From positions 1-21,039 of the IMG/VR virus record IMGVR_UViG_3300032285_001481: a stretch of DNA of 21,039 nucleotides; one strand, written 5' to 3'. This document shows, piece after piece, positions 3,195-17,449 of the stretch. Made by a program: the position numbers and the translations under genes. This DNA comes from a virus. Position 1 is the first letter of the stretch. Every line of letters begins with the position of its first letter. The notes under the pieces are model-generated. The model was not told the DNA's origin. It searched no databases and saw only the letters and a program-made list of their open reading frames with translations.

Positions 3195-3719
3195 TCATTC
3201 TCCTTGGCGGTTTTCCGCTTTTAACTGCTTTGGACGCCAAAATATATGTTGGCCAACTGCGGCAGTTTTTTTAATTTTATTACTGTGTCTATAATATTTA
3301 CGGTTACGAAAACTCAGCGCACCGTTACTTAAATCATAGGTTTTCCCTGACAAAATTAATGTGGCAATCTGTTGGCTAGTTTCCCAATGTATGCCCTCTG
3401 GGGTTCTATGTTTCCTACAGGTCCAACCAAACTGACACCTTTTTGAATCGGCTTGATGTACAACACTACATATTGTTTGGGGATATATTCCACTGTGAAC
3501 ACGATTTACAATCACATGTCCTACAGCAATTTTTCCGGCTTTAGGCTCAGAGCCTGATTCAAAGTATATAGCTTCTGCTAAACACTTATGATCTTGAGTA
3601 GTTGCATTTACTACTATCTTACCTTCTGCTGTTGCACACCCTGCTAGAGCAAGAGTTGAGGCAACTGCTATCGTTGTTATAATATTCAATACACTCTCCG
3701 TTTTAACTAGGGTTGCCAA
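3195..3719 (-). CDS. Probable lipoprotein cell-wall hydrolase, SleB/CwlJ family
   Basis: A 174-residue protein whose N-terminus is a hydrophobic segment ending in LALAGC, a good lipobox, so the mature protein would be lipid-anchored at that Cys. The rest matches the SleB/CwlJ hydrolase family (Hydrolase_2): CLAEAIYFESGSEP with the catalytic Glu, GKIAVGHVIVNRV, a central QFGWTC segment, and the late SNGALSFRNRKYYRHS stretch. The family cleaves peptidoglycan glycan strands. The start is TTG 3719, with AAGGAG 11 bases upstream, and gives a Lys in the signal n-region. A second TTG at 3689 with GGAG six bases upstream is an alternative that would leave the n-region without positive charge. It is followed immediately by the secreted amidase-like gene, making a two-enzyme cassette directly after the tmRNA. 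Confidence 0.83.
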   Translation of the reverse strand: MATLVKTESVLNIITTIAVASTLALAGCATAEGKIVVNATTQDHKCLAEAIYFESGSEPKAGKIAVGHVIVNRVHSGIYPQTICSVVHQADSKRCQFGWTCRKHRTPEGIHWETSQQIATLILSGKTYDLSNGALSFRNRKYYRHSNKIKKTAAVGQHIFWRPKQLKAENRQGE

Positions 3720-3736: not shown

Positions 3737-3774
3737 AAAAATAATTGGCGGAATTCTGTTTCCAAGTTTCCGCC
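3737..3774 (-). terminator. Hairpin at the 3' end of the tmRNA gene, probable terminator
   Basis: GGCGGAA (3774-3768) pairs with TTCCGCC (3753-3747) around a 14-base loop. On the minus strand the stem is followed by AATTATTTTT. It lies nine bases after the tag stop codon, so it may be both a stem of the tmRNA coding piece (P5 region) and the transcription stop. The loop is larger than in classical terminators. Confidence 0.6.
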
Positions 3775-3782
3775 GGACTCAT

Positions 3783-3824
3783 TTACGCTGCTAGAGCGTA
3801 AGATGGGGCAAAGTTATCGTTTGC
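3783..3824 (-). other. ssrA: tmRNA tag reading frame ANDNFAPSYALAA-stop
   Basis: Thirteen codons and TAA on the minus strand, starting with the resume codon GCA at 3824. It is preceded by ACAAAAAACTTTAGGT, resembling the conserved A-rich and UAG bases before the resume codon in E. coli tmRNA. With the alanine carried by the tmRNA itself the tag would be AANDNFAPSYALAA. The ALAA end is the classic ClpXP/ClpAP degron. The ANDNF start is typical of alphaproteobacterial tags (recollection). Confidence 0.93.
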
Positions 3825-3910
3825 ACCTAAAGTTTTTTGTTACGTTAAGGCAGTTTCCACGCCACTGTCTACTTCAATCTTTACAGCACCAATCGAACCT
3901 ATTCACTCCC

Positions 3911-3985
3911 ATCATAAACACACAGAACTATAATCCTACGGGGCACTCAGTTATATTGTTGCTACTACAACCTGTGTGTTTATGG
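3911..3985 (-). other. tmRNA intervening segment closed by 12-bp helix
   Basis: The segment (3982-3911) between the CCA end and the 5' G of the coding piece is expected to be removed by RNA processing. ATAAACACACAG (3983-3972) and CTGTGTGTTTAT (3925-3914) pair perfectly over 12 bp, and the helix can extend toward the CCA. This holds the two acceptor strands together in the precursor, as in known permuted tmRNA precursors. Confidence 0.88.
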
Positions 3986-4050
3986 TGGAAGTGGGGAGAT
4001 TCGCACTCCCGTCTTGCCGCCTTATTCCATTGCTATCAACAACAGTAATA

Positions 4051-4058
4051 TATTTATA
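4051..4058 (-). promoter_or_regulatory. T4-late-type promoter box TATAAATA before tmRNA
   Basis: A perfect TATAAATA on the minus strand, the consensus -10 of T4 late promoters recognised by gp55-type sigma factors. Transcription would start about six bases later, near 4044, about 34 bases before the T-arm. Four AATAAATA copies lie before other genes in this window. No good -35 is visible. Confidence 0.55.
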
Positions 4059-4082
4059 CTACTTTTGCTTCAGAATGTCAAT

Positions 4083-7000
4083 TTATAAGGGTTTAGCATC
4101 CGGACCAGTACCGCCATAGGCTGCTGGATCATTACGATTGATACCAGAATCATAAAGACTTCTAGCTGAACCATAACGCTTGATCAATTTATCTAATAGT
4201 CCATTGGCAATTAAACCGCCTGTTACAGTTTGGCTTAATGCTTCAACGTTTTGATTAGTTACTTGGGCTAATAATTCCAGTACACCCCAAATCATTTGAT
4301 CAGTGTTAAATGGATTTTCGTATTTGGTTGTGAGTATGTCCCCATACAATAGACGATTAACAATCTGCATCATTTTTAATACAAATTCGTCATTGTTTGG
4401 CAGTATCAAACCATTGTCTTTGATTTGAGCAACTAATGTTCGATTGCCGTTAAGATCAACAACATACATATTATCATTCATTACTTCTATATTTCTGTCT
4501 AATGCAGTTTTAACTAATTGACGTCCTATGTCTTCTAATACACCAGTGTTTGTCTCAGACCATAAACTGTCATAATAGATTTCATCCTTTTGATTATTTT
4601 GCAATGGAACATCATTGTAGCCCATTTGTTCTAATCTAGTGTTTCTAGCATTTAAATAAACATCAGTTGGGGTACGTGGATATACAGGAGCTAATTTGTT
4701 CTGTGGTTGAGGAGGGAACGCTCCAGTATACATTGATTCATAGAATCCCTCAGGGTCTCTATAGTACTGACTATGAGGCAGTTTAAACTGCTCAACATCA
4801 ATACCAAGACCAGCTAATGCTTGCCCATTGCGACTGTGTCTCATCACAAACTTAACACAATCACCGTAATAATCATCTGATGCAATACGTTCAATATATT
4901 CAGCTGGACGACCATATCCTGTGTCTAATGCCCACCCTTCCAATGCTTGAGCAAACATCATAGCACTTGCTGGAGTAGGTGGAATTGGACTAAACAAATC
5001 AATTTGATGAGTTAATAAGTTGTTGCTTTCTCTTACTAATTGAGCACAACTTGCACTATACGCAGCATCTAACTTTTTGAGATTATCTTGCAATACTGTA
5101 TCTGTATTATTTAATAGTGCTTGATGTTCAGCTTCTATTAGAGGAATAAATGCATATACTACATCATCCAATGATGAAAATTGCACAGTACCACTGGGAA
5201 AAGGAACGCTGATATATCCATCTTCTCCTGGAATTCCTTGACTAGAATCACCGGCTGTGCCTGGAGTAGTATAAGCACCTGCCATAGCATTTTGTAACAG
5301 TTCAGTTAATTTATTCAATGTTTCTGCTGCTGGATGAGCACTGATATAGTCTACAGTTGCTCTAATTACCGGTGCTGTATCAGCATGTACATATCCTGCT
5401 GCTGTACCAATAAAGTCAGCCATGGTTTGTTCACCATAGGTTCCACCGCCATATCCATAAATCTGTAATAATTGATCAGCAACTTCAGTTGGCATCGGAT
5501 GTGAAGATTGATTTACATAATTTAAATCACTTGATGTTTCAAGTTTAGAAAATGCTCGACCAATTTCATAGATTGTAGTTGATTGATTAATACCAATGAT
5601 AGCTAGGTGTACACCAAATTCTCTGAAATTTTCAACCGGAATAAAACTAAAACTAGTTGGCATCATTTTTTTAAAATCAGTTAATTCACCTAAATTAGTT
5701 AGATGAGTTGTCATACTAAATGCAGTGCGTATAGTATTAACTTCTTCTTCACCATTGATATTGTTTAATGCTTGCTGTGTTAGTCTATCAAAAATTGGAT
5801 TATCAATACCAGCTATTGGAACATTTAATGTTGTTAGTTGGTCTGTTAGTCCAGTGTATCCACCTAATCCCTTGTTTAAAATCTGTGCAGCAATATTACC
5901 AGGTTGCATAAATCTCATCAAATTGCTAGCATCCCAACGACCTAATGCTATCATATCAGCACTTACTGCATTGATGTTTTGACCCAGTGTACTAACACTG
6001 AATGTCATCATGTCTTGCATATTACGAACTTTTGCACCATAACCACTGATAGATGAGCCACCAAATCCTTTGCTCATTGCTTCACTGATTGCCCCAACAA
6101 TATTTCTATTTTGACTTGTAGTAGCTGCTACTGCGGCGATAGTATTGGCATAACGCAACAGGTTAAGTTGACCACTTGGTTGTTTATATAGGCTTAATTG
6201 ACCAGTTAATACACCTGAGGCAACTGCACCAGATAAAGCACCTAATGTTGGATTCCCAGTCATATTACTAGCATAAGCCGAAATAGCACCACCTAAGCCT
6301 CCTGCCAATGCATACTGTACTGCTGCGCCCGGAGGCATTCCTCTAGCTAAAGCACCTAACCCACCTTGCAGCCCTTGAATTGCAGCCTGTGCTAATGGGC
6401 CCGGTAAGACATTGCTTAATCCTGGTATCAAACTAGCACCCATGCTGCTTAATGCACCAAAAGCAGAACCTGATAATGCTTGTAAAGGACTTTGACCAGC
6501 TACAATGCCGCCTAGAGCACCGCCAAGAGTTTGACCAACAAATGCACCAGCTGCGCCTCCTAAACTAGCACCAATACTATTACCTAATGCGCCGCCTGCA
6601 CTACCTAGCATTGCTCCCATAGCACCTTGGATACCGCCACCACTTAGCAAAGCCATTGCACCGCTTACTAAGGCTCCTTGTGCAATGCCGCCAAGATTGC
6701 CCAATAAGCCGCCTGCAACACTGGCCATTGGAGACGTTGGTCCGCCACCTAAACAGCCTGCTCCGCCAAATGCAGCACCAGCAGCACCAATAGCACCGCC
6801 TGCACCGCCTAGAGCACCACCAGCTCCACCACCAGCTCCACCGCCACCGTCTCCGGGCGGAACAGTAGCACCTGGACCAGCATCGTCTCCTGATCCCAGT
6901 TGTGTGCCAAATTCTCTTCTTAGAGCTATACCTTGAGTACTTTGGGGATCAACTTGATCTTCATTAGCATCGTATATTTCTCTGTGCAAGTGCGGTTGTC

Positions 7001-7322
7001 CAGGAGCACCAGTATCACCAGTTAATGCAATCGCAGTTCCTGGTTTAACAGTATCACCTTGATTATAATTTATCTGAGACAAATGCATTAATCTCTCAGA
7101 ACCAATATATTCACCATTGATATCGTAATAACTTACTTCTTGCCAGATTCCTGATCTTGAATCTTGTCCGCCGGCTGTAATTTGAGCTGTTACACCATTT
7201 GATGAAGTAAAAGGAATTGGAGTACCAACAGCCGCTGATTGATCTATGCCACCATGTTCTCTAGCACCACCATCTCTTGGTGCACCATAATGTCCATTAG
7301 GTGTAATTGCTCCAGTTGCCAT
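4083..7322 (-). CDS. Large virion protein with N-terminal M23 peptidase domain
   Basis: A 1079-residue protein. Residues 1-130 form an M23/LytM-type zinc endopeptidase: His23-x-Gly-x-Asp27 and His113 as predicted zinc ligands, with His80 and His111 (in HLH) as the catalytic histidines. All five expected residues are present. Residues about 140-390 are dominated by Gly and Ala, with glycine-zipper-like stretches (ALGGAGGAIGAAGAAFGGAG). The remaining ~690 residues are mixed and unrecognised. There is no signal peptide. Its place after the PAAR gene suggests a baseplate or spike component that opens the cell wall during infection, in the role that gp5 lysozyme plays in T4; that is an inference from fold and context. 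The ATG lies three bases after the preceding stop, with CGGAG upstream. On the opposite strand the Gly-rich part produces a false Pro-rich frame. Confidence 0.85.
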   Translation of the reverse strand: MATGAITPNGHYGAPRDGGAREHGGIDQSAAVGTPIPFTSSNGVTAQITAGGQDSRSGIWQEVSYYDINGEYIGSERLMHLSQINYNQGDTVKPGTAIALTGDTGAPGQPHLHREIYDANEDQVDPQSTQGIALRREFGTQLGSGDDAGPGATVPPGDGGGGAGGGAGGALGGAGGAIGAAGAAFGGAGCLGGGPTSPMASVAGGLLGNLGGIAQGALVSGAMALLSGGGIQGAMGAMLGSAGGALGNSIGASLGGAAGAFVGQTLGGALGGIVAGQSPLQALSGSAFGALSSMGASLIPGLSNVLPGPLAQAAIQGLQGGLGALARGMPPGAAVQYALAGGLGGAISAYASNMTGNPTLGALSGAVASGVLTGQLSLYKQPSGQLNLLRYANTIAAVAATTSQNRNIVGAISEAMSKGFGGSSISGYGAKVRNMQDMMTFSVSTLGQNINAVSADMIALGRWDASNLMRFMQPGNIAAQILNKGLGGYTGLTDQLTTLNVPIAGIDNPIFDRLTQQALNNINGEEEVNTIRTAFSMTTHLTNLGELTDFKKMMPTSFSFIPVENFREFGVHLAIIGINQSTTIYEIGRAFSKLETSSDLNYVNQSSHPMPTEVADQLLQIYGYGGGTYGEQTMADFIGTAAGYVHADTAPVIRATVDYISAHPAAETLNKLTELLQNAMAGAYTTPGTAGDSSQGIPGEDGYISVPFPSGTVQFSSLDDVVYAFIPLIEAEHQALLNNTDTVLQDNLKKLDAAYSASCAQLVRESNNLLTHQIDLFSPIPPTPASAMMFAQALEGWALDTGYGRPAEYIERIASDDYYGDCVKFVMRHSRNGQALAGLGIDVEQFKLPHSQYYRDPEGFYESMYTGAFPPQPQNKLAPVYPRTPTDVYLNARNTRLEQMGYNDVPLQNNQKDEIYYDSLWSETNTGVLEDIGRQLVKTALDRNIEVMNDNMYVVDLNGNRTLVAQIKDNGLILPNNDEFVLKMMQIVNRLLYGDILTTKYENPFNTDQMIWGVLELLAQVTNQNVEALSQTVTGGLIANGLLDKLIKRYGSARSLYDSGINRNDPAAYGGTGPDAKPL

Positions 7323-14041: not shown

Positions 14042-17000
14042 TTACCAACTTAAATCAAGATAAGATTCTGCAACCAGTAAGTCAATATCGCTGCCAATAT
14101 CAGACGTGTAATCCAAACTTACATATGTGCCGTCATCACTTAAACTAAATGTAACACCAACATCATTAGTTTCGCTTGAATCATCATCTAGATTATATGT
14201 AAACGTACTACTGTTCACTGATATAGTTAAAATACCAGTTCTAGTATCCCCGCCTCGTTGCAGTGAATATTGAACTTTTTTATTATAACTGTTGTCATCT
14301 AATAAGAAACTATAACCTGTAGCTTGATTAGTTTCAGCGCCATTTAGTGTGTATCTTTCACCACCTTCTTGACGCCAAAGCCCAACTTTTACTTCATGCC
14401 CTGCTGTAATTTCAATGGTTCTAGTATTACCATATACATAGTTATATCCTGATTCATGAGCTTCTTCATAAGTTCTTTCAAATTGATCATTGATACTTGC
14501 GCATCCTTCACTTAGATCACCAAAATCCATAATATAACTAACAGCATGTCCAATTCCGTTGTAATTGTTACCTACATCTCGATAGCTGTTGAAGTTGCTG
14601 ATTACATTAGTTGCATAGTTTGTTTTTATTGCTTCATGACCAATTAAATCAAAAACACAATTGCTTATGTTCATTGTGTTTAATCTACCGCCTAATACAG
14701 CAACATTGAATGCATTATACATCATTCTAAAAGTTGTACTACTGAATATAACATTTCTACTGTATTCAGTTGAAGGTTGGTAAACTCCGTAGTTATAATT
14801 TTCAATAATACAATCTATAAAGTTTAAATCAGCAGGGGGATCTAATTCACCACCTATAATATAAACACCTACATATTCTACACCATCTATCGCTTGGGGT
14901 CCAGGATTATTAGTTTGACCTCCAGTCATTCTCACACGTTCAAAAGTTGTTATACTTGAATTGATATGCCAAACAGCATCATATGAACTTTCCAATGCCA
15001 TGTTTGATACATAAATGCTTTTTGGAAGAACAGCGCCATTTAAACCTGATTGTGCGCCAATTTGTTGTAAGCTGTCAGCTGTGGTCATTACATAACTAAC
15101 AAAATTTGGATCAGCAGTCTGTTGAATAATAGTATTATTCATACCTTCACCAACTAGATTTGCGTTAGTTGGCACATTTAATCCGTTGCTTATGATATAA
15201 CGCCCACCTGGAAAATACAATGTTTTTCTAGCTGATGGATTAGCATTTCGACAAAAAATTTCATACATAGCACGATTAATAGATTCTGTATCATCAGTTA
15301 CACCATCACCAACAGCACCAAAATCTTTAACACTGACATAATCATCTAATTTACTTTGTAGTGTTCTAATAGTTTGACTGGTGCCAAAATTAAAACTAAA
15401 TCCATCCCAAGTTACAGCATCAACACTGTTTGCGATAAATCCTTGATTGCCTACAGCAGTAAACTTTGTCTTAGAATTAACATAAACTATTGATAAAATA
15501 TCAGAAGTATTCAAATTTGGAACAGTATAAGTTTTATCGGTTTGACTAACGAAATTTTGACCATCATGGCTGATCAAAATAGAATTATATTGTCCTACAA
15601 TTACATAATAATTATTTCCGTATGTACTGTTATACAATGTGGGACCATTATATCCAGTTGTCAAACTATAAACAACAGCAAGGCTCTGCGGAGTTATAGT
15701 ACTTGGTACTGTGATATCTAATGCATATAGCGTACTATATCCAACACTGCCAATAATCCAAAAATATCCTAAACCATAATAAATGTTAAACATATGATTT
15801 GTGGCATTTATATTTTCTACATATGCCCAAGTTTGACCATTGTCAACACTAGATAAAACTTTTGCATTGTTTCCAACAGCAAACCATTTAGTATAGGTTT
15901 GTAAATCATAAGTCCATGTGACATAATTTACGTTATGTAGATCATCACTGAAGCCTGAGGGAACTGTAGAAAGGGTCCAAGTTGCACCTTTATCCGAACT
16001 ATAAATTATTGCTCCATTTGTTCCAACTGCTACTGTACGCCAATTTGATCCACCAACATTGAATGATTTAACACTGTCTAAATTTTCTGCAATGCCAGTT
16101 GATCTCAATGTCCAAGTACTTAAATCATTACTTGTATAAATTTCACCTTGTTCAGCGGCAATTATATAAGTTTTTTCAGTGGGAGAATTTGGTTTAGCTA
16201 CAGTGATACCATATAATGAATTTGACGTATCTAATGAAATAATTTGCCAAACAGCTCCATCATTACTAGTTAGAATAAATCCGCCAGTACAAACAGCAAC
16301 ATATACTGAATTATCACTGTCATATATTATCCTATTAATATCTTCGTTAAACGATCCTAACCCACTGGTGCTAGTGCTTACTTTTGACCAAGTTACACCT
16401 GAGGAACTTGTTAAAATTGTAGTATTAGCTCCAACAGCAACAAATTGATTGTCATCTGCATTATAACAAACATCATATAAATTTTCTTCGGTATCAGTGT
16501 TTGAAATTACTAAATCAGTAGTGTTAGTTCTATAAATTATTCCGCCGTCGCCTACAAAAACCCATGTTGTACTGTTTTTTGCAGCAGCTCTAAAAGTATC
16601 AGTATAACCATAAGTCCAAGTAGTTGCATCCATGCTTACTAACACAGTGCTGTATTCGCCGGTTATTGTCCATTGGTCAGTGTATTTGACTGATTTCAAA
16701 TTGTAATTAGTTGGGCTTGTTTGTAAAGTCCATGTAGAAACATCATTTTCATTGCTTAATAAAATAATTCCGTTATTACCAACTGCCACAGCATAGCTAC
16801 CATCGAAATCAATGCTATTTAAACTGTCACCTACACCTGTTGCAATTGGACTGCTCCAAACATTTGCATCTTCGCTGATAATAATAAAACCGGTATTACT
16901 TGTGGCAATAAACTTTTGTACTGTTCCGCCAGCATATACAACTGAAGTAAGCGTAAGGAAAATAGCAGTTGATGCAGTGTTCCAGCCACCGCCATCCGAA

Positions 17001-17449
17001 CTTCTTACAATAGTACCACCTGCACCAACAGCAACATATAAACCATTACCGTAACATACACTGTTAAAGCTGGTAGTTACACCAGGATATATCGGAGACC
17101 AATTTGCTCCGTCAGTGCTTGTTAACAGATTACCAGCATTACCAACTGCAACATATAAATCGTTACCATAGATTACGCTAGTAAACCTACTGGTACGTCC
17201 ACCGGTATTAGGAATATAACCAGCAGTTTCATTTTTGAATGTATAAGTTTTTGCTAATTGTAAGATATCACTATGCTCAGTCAACATTTCAGTATTGCCA
17301 AGTTTAGGAGCACCTTCTGCTAAAGGTCCATTGCCAATAAAGAGGCGCTGTTCGTCCATACTCCAACCAAATTCAGCAGCAGCTAATTGTGGTAAATCTT
17401 GTTGTAAACCTCTACGATGTTGGATGCGGGAAATGCTTACTATAGACAT
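14042..17449 (-). CDS. Tail fibre/tailspike with double propeller and beta-helix
   Basis: A 1135-residue adsorption protein. Residues about 5-45 (SRIQHRRGLQQDLP...EFGWSMDEQRLFIGNG) match the N-terminal module found in phage fibres such as Mtd. Residues about 85-690 contain 14 repeats of roughly 43 residues, each with a (A)VG-x-G-x-I-x-x-S-x-D-x-x-x-W core, as in Ycf48/BNR-type propellers. From about 705 (VKDFGAVGDGVTDDTESI) a pectate-lyase-3-type right-handed beta-helix begins, the usual body of depolymerase tailspikes. The last ~125 residues form a separate Asp/Ser-rich beta domain. It would bind, and perhaps cut, surface glycans of the host. Catalytic residues in the helix cannot be assigned. 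AAGGA and an AATAAATA box lie upstream of ATG 17449. No C-type lectin variable region or reverse transcriptase is present. Confidence 0.87.
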   Translation of the reverse strand: MSIVSISRIQHRRGLQQDLPQLAAAEFGWSMDEQRLFIGNGPLAEGAPKLGNTEMLTEHSDILQLAKTYTFKNETAGYIPNTGGRTSRFTSVIYGNDLYVAVGNAGNLLTSTDGANWSPIYPGVTTSFNSVCYGNGLYVAVGAGGTIVRSSDGGGWNTASTAIFLTLTSVVYAGGTVQKFIATSNTGFIIISEDANVWSSPIATGVGDSLNSIDFDGSYAVAVGNNGIILLSNENDVSTWTLQTSPTNYNLKSVKYTDQWTITGEYSTVLVSMDATTWTYGYTDTFRAAAKNSTTWVFVGDGGIIYRTNTTDLVISNTDTEENLYDVCYNADDNQFVAVGANTTILTSSSGVTWSKVSTSTSGLGSFNEDINRIIYDSDNSVYVAVCTGGFILTSNDGAVWQIISLDTSNSLYGITVAKPNSPTEKTYIIAAEQGEIYTSNDLSTWTLRSTGIAENLDSVKSFNVGGSNWRTVAVGTNGAIIYSSDKGATWTLSTVPSGFSDDLHNVNYVTWTYDLQTYTKWFAVGNNAKVLSSVDNGQTWAYVENINATNHMFNIYYGLGYFWIIGSVGYSTLYALDITVPSTITPQSLAVVYSLTTGYNGPTLYNSTYGNNYYVIVGQYNSILISHDGQNFVSQTDKTYTVPNLNTSDILSIVYVNSKTKFTAVGNQGFIANSVDAVTWDGFSFNFGTSQTIRTLQSKLDDYVSVKDFGAVGDGVTDDTESINRAMYEIFCRNANPSARKTLYFPGGRYIISNGLNVPTNANLVGEGMNNTIIQQTADPNFVSYVMTTADSLQQIGAQSGLNGAVLPKSIYVSNMALESSYDAVWHINSSITTFERVRMTGGQTNNPGPQAIDGVEYVGVYIIGGELDPPADLNFIDCIIENYNYGVYQPSTEYSRNVIFSSTTFRMMYNAFNVAVLGGRLNTMNISNCVFDLIGHEAIKTNYATNVISNFNSYRDVGNNYNGIGHAVSYIMDFGDLSEGCASINDQFERTYEEAHESGYNYVYGNTRTIEITAGHEVKVGLWRQEGGERYTLNGAETNQATGYSFLLDDNSYNKKVQYSLQRGGDTRTGILTISVNSSTFTYNLDDDSSETNDVGVTFSLSDDGTYVSLDYTSDIGSDIDLLVAESYLDLSW
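15390..17190 (-). repeat. Fourteen propeller-blade repeats within tail fibre
   Basis: I count 14 repeats of about 130 bases encoding motifs such as GNAGNLLTSTDGANW, GNNGIILLS, GTNGAIIYSSDKGATW and GNQGFIANSVDAVTW. They differ in sequence, so the repetition is at protein rather than DNA level. Confidence 0.75.

Follow-up and report, generated by a model that had tools for sequence, protein, structure and literature searches.

The window, by which we mean the whole stretch of 21,039 nucleotides that was analyzed, is a 21-kb metagenomic virus contig (a fragment), and its minus strand carries a tmRNA gene of circularly permuted (two-piece) form, complete at 4085-3744 and flanked by a gene for a 1079-amino acid protein upstream and a cell-wall hydrolase gene downstream. 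The features of the locus are given below, with the evidence for each in parentheses.

4083-7322, minus: upstream gene, 1079 aa, M23 peptidase/tail-type protein (gene calls, domain and PHROG matches)
4053-4081, minus: predicted sigma70-type promoter, TTGACA at 4081-4076, 17-nt spacer, TATAAA at 4058-4053 (sequence)
3983-4046, minus: 3' half of the tRNA-like domain, promoter-proximal, with CCA at 3985-3983 (RF04321, ARAGORN -ps50); the 5' boundary at 4046 is approximate, being taken from where the Rfam match begins
3994-4010, minus: T-arm, GGGAG-TGCGAAT-CTCCC (sequence, ARAGORN bracket structure)
3987-3993, minus: 3' acceptor strand CACTTCC, forming 7/7 pairs with 3910-3904 (sequence, ARAGORN)
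3911-3982, minus: intervening segment (IVS, or spacer), 72 nt (sequence, fold, comparison with relatives)
3904-3910, minus: 5' acceptor strand GGGAGTG, with an RNase P cut expected at 3911/3910 (sequence, Rfam, ARAGORN)
3744-3910, minus: 5' half of the tRNA-like domain plus the mRNA-like domain, i.e., the second RNA piece (RF01849, to 3744)
3783-3824, minus: tag frame GCA...TAA, encoding ANDNFAPSYALAA (Rfam, ARAGORN -ps50)
3745-3775, minus: 3'-terminal hairpin of the 5' piece, GGCGGAA...TTCCGCC (fold, 3' end of RF01849)
3195-3719, minus: downstream cell-wall hydrolase of endolysin type (Pfam PF07486, E 1.8e-20; PHROG endolysin)

The stop codon of the 1079-aa gene abuts the tmRNA promoter. Within the minus-strand tmRNA gene, A3986 stands between the 3' acceptor strand (3993-3987) and the encoded CCA (3985-3983), a D-loop-like sequence, AATAGGTTCGATTGG, lies 3' of the 5' acceptor strand (3910-3904), and the tag frame has its resume codon, its stop, and a hydrophobic AA-type end. 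A hairpin-like sequence, CTGGGGCTTGGCAACCCTAG, occupies 3727-3706, in the gap that separates the tmRNA from the hydrolase gene, and a similar one, GGGCTTGGCAACCCTA, is found 3' of the tmRNA in one relative (L088).

Two Rfam models matched the gene in full length, not truncated, and above their gathering cut-offs: RF04321 (tmRNA_permuted) at 4046-3783 (-) with 113.6 bits (E 6.9e-22; cut-off 47 bits), and RF01849 (alpha_tmRNA) at 4085-3744 (-) with 96.9 bits (E 1.1e-25; cut-off 50 bits). ARAGORN reported no tmRNA gene in the window at default settings, but at a lowered threshold (-ps50) it returned a gene in permuted form whose ends and tag, ANDNFAPSYALAA, agree with those read from the sequence. 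The default search thus misses the tmRNA of this lineage, and such genes are under-counted. A first-pass annotation, made from the sequence alone, had proposed a phage-encoded permuted tmRNA here, and the two Rfam matches, including the alpha_tmRNA check that it had suggested, together with the ARAGORN -ps50 result, bear this proposal out; its ARAGORN check in permuted mode succeeded with the named ends at -ps50 and failed at default settings. The ends that it had placed at 3983 (CCA) and 3910 (5' piece), as well as its seven acceptor pairs including G3-U70, are found both in the sequence and by ARAGORN -ps50, while its span of 3747-4058 hits the right locus but is slightly short, with the promoter beginning at 4081 and the alpha_tmRNA match covering 4085-3744. 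The tmRNA precursor also folds more stably than shuffled sequence (z -3.3). The tmRNA call is far beyond chance, and the RNA is of the alphaproteobacterial type.

Other genes in the window are those for a CHAP protein (downstream), a glutaredoxin, the two RNR subunits, a long fibre-like protein, a nuclease, and a dCMP deaminase, and one PHROG match is to a baseplate hub/tail lysozyme; neither a capsid nor a terminase gene was found in this 21-kb fragment. A large fibre-like protein at 14042-17449 begins in an Mtd_N-like manner and contains YCF48/BNR-like repeat units as well as a domain resembling pectate lyase. The tmRNA gene is phage-encoded and is not host DNA, as seen from its phage neighbors in a viral contig and from its recurrence in relatives. 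The window NrdB has thousands of phage matches, but even the best of those in isolates, to jumbo phages, reaches only 60% identity, so membership of the phage among the T4-like phages, although plausible, is unproven.

Conservation among phage relatives

A permuted tmRNA above the RF04321 cut-off was present in 20 of 48 NrdB-related IMG/VR contigs, many of which are fragments, and both Caulobacter phage records tested also passed this cut-off. Many more phage permuted tmRNAs were found by a pattern scan, after which a dissection script, requiring at least six of the seven acceptor pairs, placed the T-arm, CCA, spacer, 5' strand, and tag of each gene. Two low-scoring false positives of the pattern finder (L012 and L013) and one gene with a wrong spacer end (L004) were left out of later counts, and because the finder missed some true genes (L101, L105, L106, and L191), the census is incomplete. 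Searches for relatives through the 1079-aa upstream protein confirmed none, a BLASTN search of the window tmRNA against isolate phages gave only short matches, which pointed to Caulobacter phages, and a marine tmRNA query found no match. Caulobacter phages of the phiCbK group (L082-L085, L447, and L448; JX100814, JX163858, MH588544, and JX100811) carry a permuted tmRNA that scores 71-88 bits with RF04321 and is not annotated in the inspected records; Mesorhizobium phage Cp1R7A-A1 (L446, 1345-1631) also has a permuted tmRNA that is unannotated, its spacer measuring 93 nt. A GOLLD RNA lies near the permuted tmRNA in phiCbK, Karma, and DSS3_MAL1.

The G3-U70 pair is invariant in the phage genes (97/97), and acceptor pairs 4-7 covary, with up to five standard pair types among the 97 genes; in the window, for example, pair 4 is A-U and pair 6 is U-A, and other phages have C-G, U-A, or A-U. 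Since the finder itself demands at least 6/7 pairing, it is the variety of pair types, and not the rate of pairing, that constitutes the evidence. Most phage tags end in AA, and a similar TTGACA...TATAAAT lies just 5' of the tmRNA in nearly all of the phage relatives, among which the position of the tmRNA varies.

These features bear on two alternative accounts of the gene. It might be a recently captured host tmRNA that persists as a neutral or decaying remnant of recombination, an origin with which the alphaproteobacterial type of the RNA would agree and for which the host-to-phage transfer argued for Melnitz (PMC9004378) offers a precedent. A gene that is intact in the window, widespread at varied positions in relatives, altered by compensatory changes in its acceptor stem, and equipped with its own consensus promoter does not look like such a remnant, to which we give hardly any credence. 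Phages often attack the translation quality control of their hosts, and the RNA could instead be a decoy that inhibits host trans-translation by titrating SmpB. This has been proposed for the tag-less, tRNA-like RNA of mycobacteriophage DS6A, and a DS6A-like molecule inhibits tmRNA, possibly through SmpB titration (PMC4131195, PMC11915505). A decoy, however, would need neither an intact tag nor the alanine identity pair G3-U70, whereas the phage genes keep this pair throughout and have an intact and conserved tag frame, resume codon region, and ALAA-type degron, which makes a decoy role highly improbable.

Length, contents, and exchange of the spacer

The least usual feature of the window gene is its intervening segment, to which the first-pass annotation had drawn no attention. 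Phage spacers (n = 96 distinct) have a median length of 91 nt, with 72 of them longer than 60 nt and 43 longer than 95 nt, whereas the spacers of 99 alphaproteobacterial control genes, retrieved by one 20-nt pattern, have a median of 30 nt, with only six above 60 nt and one above 95 nt (Mann-Whitney p 4e-18); the difference holds when the phage loci are limited to the same 20-nt pattern (p 2e-14). Long alphaproteobacterial spacers do occur, reaching 139 nt among the 99 controls and 89-232 nt in a set of genomes selected for their long matches, and spacer length alone is therefore not unique to phages. A helix extending the acceptor stem is usual at the start and end of the spacer in phages and bacteria alike.

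In the window, the 72-nt spacer is structured (fold z -3.59 relative to dinucleotide shuffles) and contains no ORF of more than 3 codons. Its outer helix, UAAACACACAG/CUGUGUGUUUA, lengthens the acceptor stem and encloses the core GGTTGTAGTAGCAACAATATAACTGAGTGCCCCGTAGGATTATAGTTCT; a 49-nt core is identical in three relatives (L005, L110, and L111). Where compared (L111 and L005), the spacers are 93-94% identical to that of the window, the tmRNA bodies are 70% identical, and the outer helix shows one compensatory change, from C-G to U-A. The window cassette is a structured non-coding element. When 20 relatives were scanned with Rfam at E 0.5 for known riboswitches or ribozymes within the spacers, only tmRNA, tRNA, and chance matches were returned, and a looser 16-nt search for the window core outside tmRNAs yielded three extra matches, all in high-GC contigs and all dismissed as chance.

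A spacer of this kind could be unconstrained filler, drifting within an ordinary phage permuted tmRNA and containing ORFs that are fortuitous or decaying. It is by definition absent from the mature tmRNA (PMC11915505), bacterial spacers vary freely too, and that of the window is non-coding. Non-coding phage spacers nevertheless form more stable folds than their dinucleotide shuffles (mean z -2.7, n = 31; about -3.6 in the window), although much of this signal comes from the outer helix, which is present in bacteria as well, and nearly the same spacers, 49-79 nt long, recur in phages that are otherwise diverged. Further evidence against filler comes from small protein genes in the spacers of mostly marine phages. 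Five families of homologous spacer ORFs gave dN/dS values of 0.07-0.34 where computable (some pairs being saturated), mostly below 0.25, with many third-position changes; as judged by these substitutions, the spacer ORFs are under purifying selection. ORFs longer than in shuffles (p<0.05) occurred in only 15 of 44 long spacers, which fits filler in part and indicates that not every long spacer is coding, but ORF length is a weak test, and the coding case rests on conservation. Some spacer ORFs also have homologs that are ordinary phage genes elsewhere: gp85 of Melnitz, directly upstream of the Melnitz ssrA, is a relative of the L134 and L180 spacer protein, and the 120-aa spacer protein of L131 has homologs immediately downstream of the tmRNA gene in L393 and L415. 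With selection and homology of this kind on record, we regard filler as an unlikely account of the phage spacers. No ORF family homologous to those of the phage spacers was seen in alphaproteobacterial spacers. For one 33-aa spacer protein, the best isolate match was rejected as chance.

The 142-nt spacer of Melnitz (L430, MZ577097) contains an unannotated ORF (2785-2927) that lies entirely under the SsrA feature, where no CDS is recorded. This ORF (MFKWLSKTRLVVITRDYFRERNRKADAKIPKYLSGTRSVYDGG.../MFKWLSKTRLVV...) is preceded by a Shine-Dalgarno-like GGAG, resembles the first ORF of the L131 spacer (...KIPKYLSGRR...), and, like several others, ends within the 5' tmRNA piece. Crossing the RNase P site is not in itself evidence of selection, because one frame in three must do so in the absence of an earlier stop. 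Four homologous spacer ORFs (L127, L200, L201, and L124) stop at the UAG of the tmRNA's own GGGGGCGAAAUAG, so that in these phages the 5' end of the tmRNA is also coding. A different kind of gene was found in a 504-nt spacer of L070 (10360-10863) and L432, which belong to the same species and encode a 100% identical LAGLIDADG endonuclease, matching PHROG 5046 (labelled HNH endonuclease) with E 8e-18 and Pfam LAGLIDADG_1 with E 7e-4, the latter at a score below the gathering cut-off.

Comparisons between closely related genes, and between distant ones, revealed that spacer and body can part company. In L142 and L198, the contigs are 95% and the tmRNA bodies 99% identical, the spacers are only 61% identical, and the spacers hold different small ORFs. 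Similarly, body and spacer identities are 98% and 50% for L094/L147, and 98% and 32% for L009/L111, the genomes of the latter pair being 77-82% identical around the 98% identical tmRNA. The reverse holds for L037/L123, where a 79-nt spacer is 99% identical, the body is 64% identical, and almost no other DNA similarity exists. High body identity across swapped spacers may in part reflect constraint on the RNA, which leaves L142/L198 as the cleanest case of a swap. Taken at the level of aligned sequences, these pairs show phage tmRNA spacers being swapped as cassettes while the tmRNA halves stay.

Proposed role of the spacer and known systems

We consider it very probable, on the strength of these comparisons, that the window holds a functional-looking phage permuted tmRNA whose spacer serves as a cargo slot of the phage. 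The gene would be transcribed from its own consensus promoter into a single precursor, from which (i) RNase P cleavage at 3911/3910 and (ii) trimming of the 3' end to the CCA at 3983 would release the IVS, presumably through processing enzymes of the host. The product would be a two-piece, alanine-chargeable tmRNA that, with host SmpB, would add ANDNFAPSYALAA to the products of stalled ribosomes. For the phage, such an RNA might keep ribosomes available late in infection or stand in for that of the host, as the first-pass annotation had suggested. As the IVS would be cut out anyway during maturation, it could be a tolerated site of insertion, occupied by a non-coding cassette in the window, often by a small protein gene (which would be translated) in marine relatives, and by a LAGLIDADG endonuclease gene in one lineage. 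Recombination in the conserved halves may be the route of exchange, driven now and then by homing endonucleases.

A broader version of the cargo-slot reading, which we advance tentatively as possible but somewhat doubtful, would make the IVS of phage permuted tmRNAs a general, splicing-free integration niche. Inserted genes or RNAs would be expressed from the tmRNA promoter, removed by tRNA processing, and recombined as cassettes, similar to an intron but lacking a ribozyme. Where an ORF runs past the RNase P site, as in Melnitz and several others, maturation would create a non-stop mRNA, itself a substrate of the same tmRNA.

Phage permuted tmRNAs have already been published for Melnitz (PMC9004378), and the window gene therefore adds a member to a described, if uncommon, type of phage gene. 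Ten phage tmRNAs were listed in 2014, with no mention of permuted ones (PMC4131195), and 53 unique two-piece phage tmRNAs were known by 2021, of which marine or aquatic phages account for 50 (PMC9004378, 2022). Trans-translation RNA supplied by a phage is known but rarely studied, and the window contributes a lineage that default ARAGORN misses. The spacer carries more weight than the gene: an RNA segment lost from the mature tmRNA is enlarged, exchanged, and often protein-coding in phages, giving a concrete example of genes nested within a non-coding RNA gene without an intron and predicting hidden small proteins in annotated genomes, including that of the cultured Melnitz. A search of the open-access literature turned up no account of phage tmRNA spacers that code for protein or are exchanged, which is not proof of novelty.

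Among known systems, Melnitz EXVC044M (MZ577097) and Pelagibacter phage Mosig (PMC9004378) resemble the window in having a phage-encoded permuted tmRNA of alphaproteobacterial type with its own promoter and a degradation-type tag. Melnitz also shares a long spacer, but its 142 nt include an ORF running into the 5' piece, whereas the 72 nt of the window are structured and lack an ORF; Mosig differs in its short form, with an RF04321 match of only 215 nt. The alphaproteobacterial permuted tmRNA, as in Caulobacter, has the same order of parts, G3-U70, a tag of the type ANDN...AA, and an outer helix extending the acceptor stem, and differs in its short spacers (median 30 nt). Two inserts within the IVS have been reported as well (PMC11915505), one a tRNA-Ala gene and the other a repetitive element, and the genomes concerned are one archaeal-binned and one bacterial; these inserts likewise place extra genetic material in the spacer, but they are isolated and non-protein-coding, and do not mark a recurrent site of phage exchange. 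Finally, group I introns in the T-loop of tmRNA, some with LAGLIDADG homing endonuclease genes (PMC11915505), are removable inserts able to carry the same kind of gene as the spacer of L070 and L432. Such an intron must self-splice, whereas the L070/L432 ORF sits in a spacer that would be removed by normal tRNA-type processing, so that no splicing would be needed.
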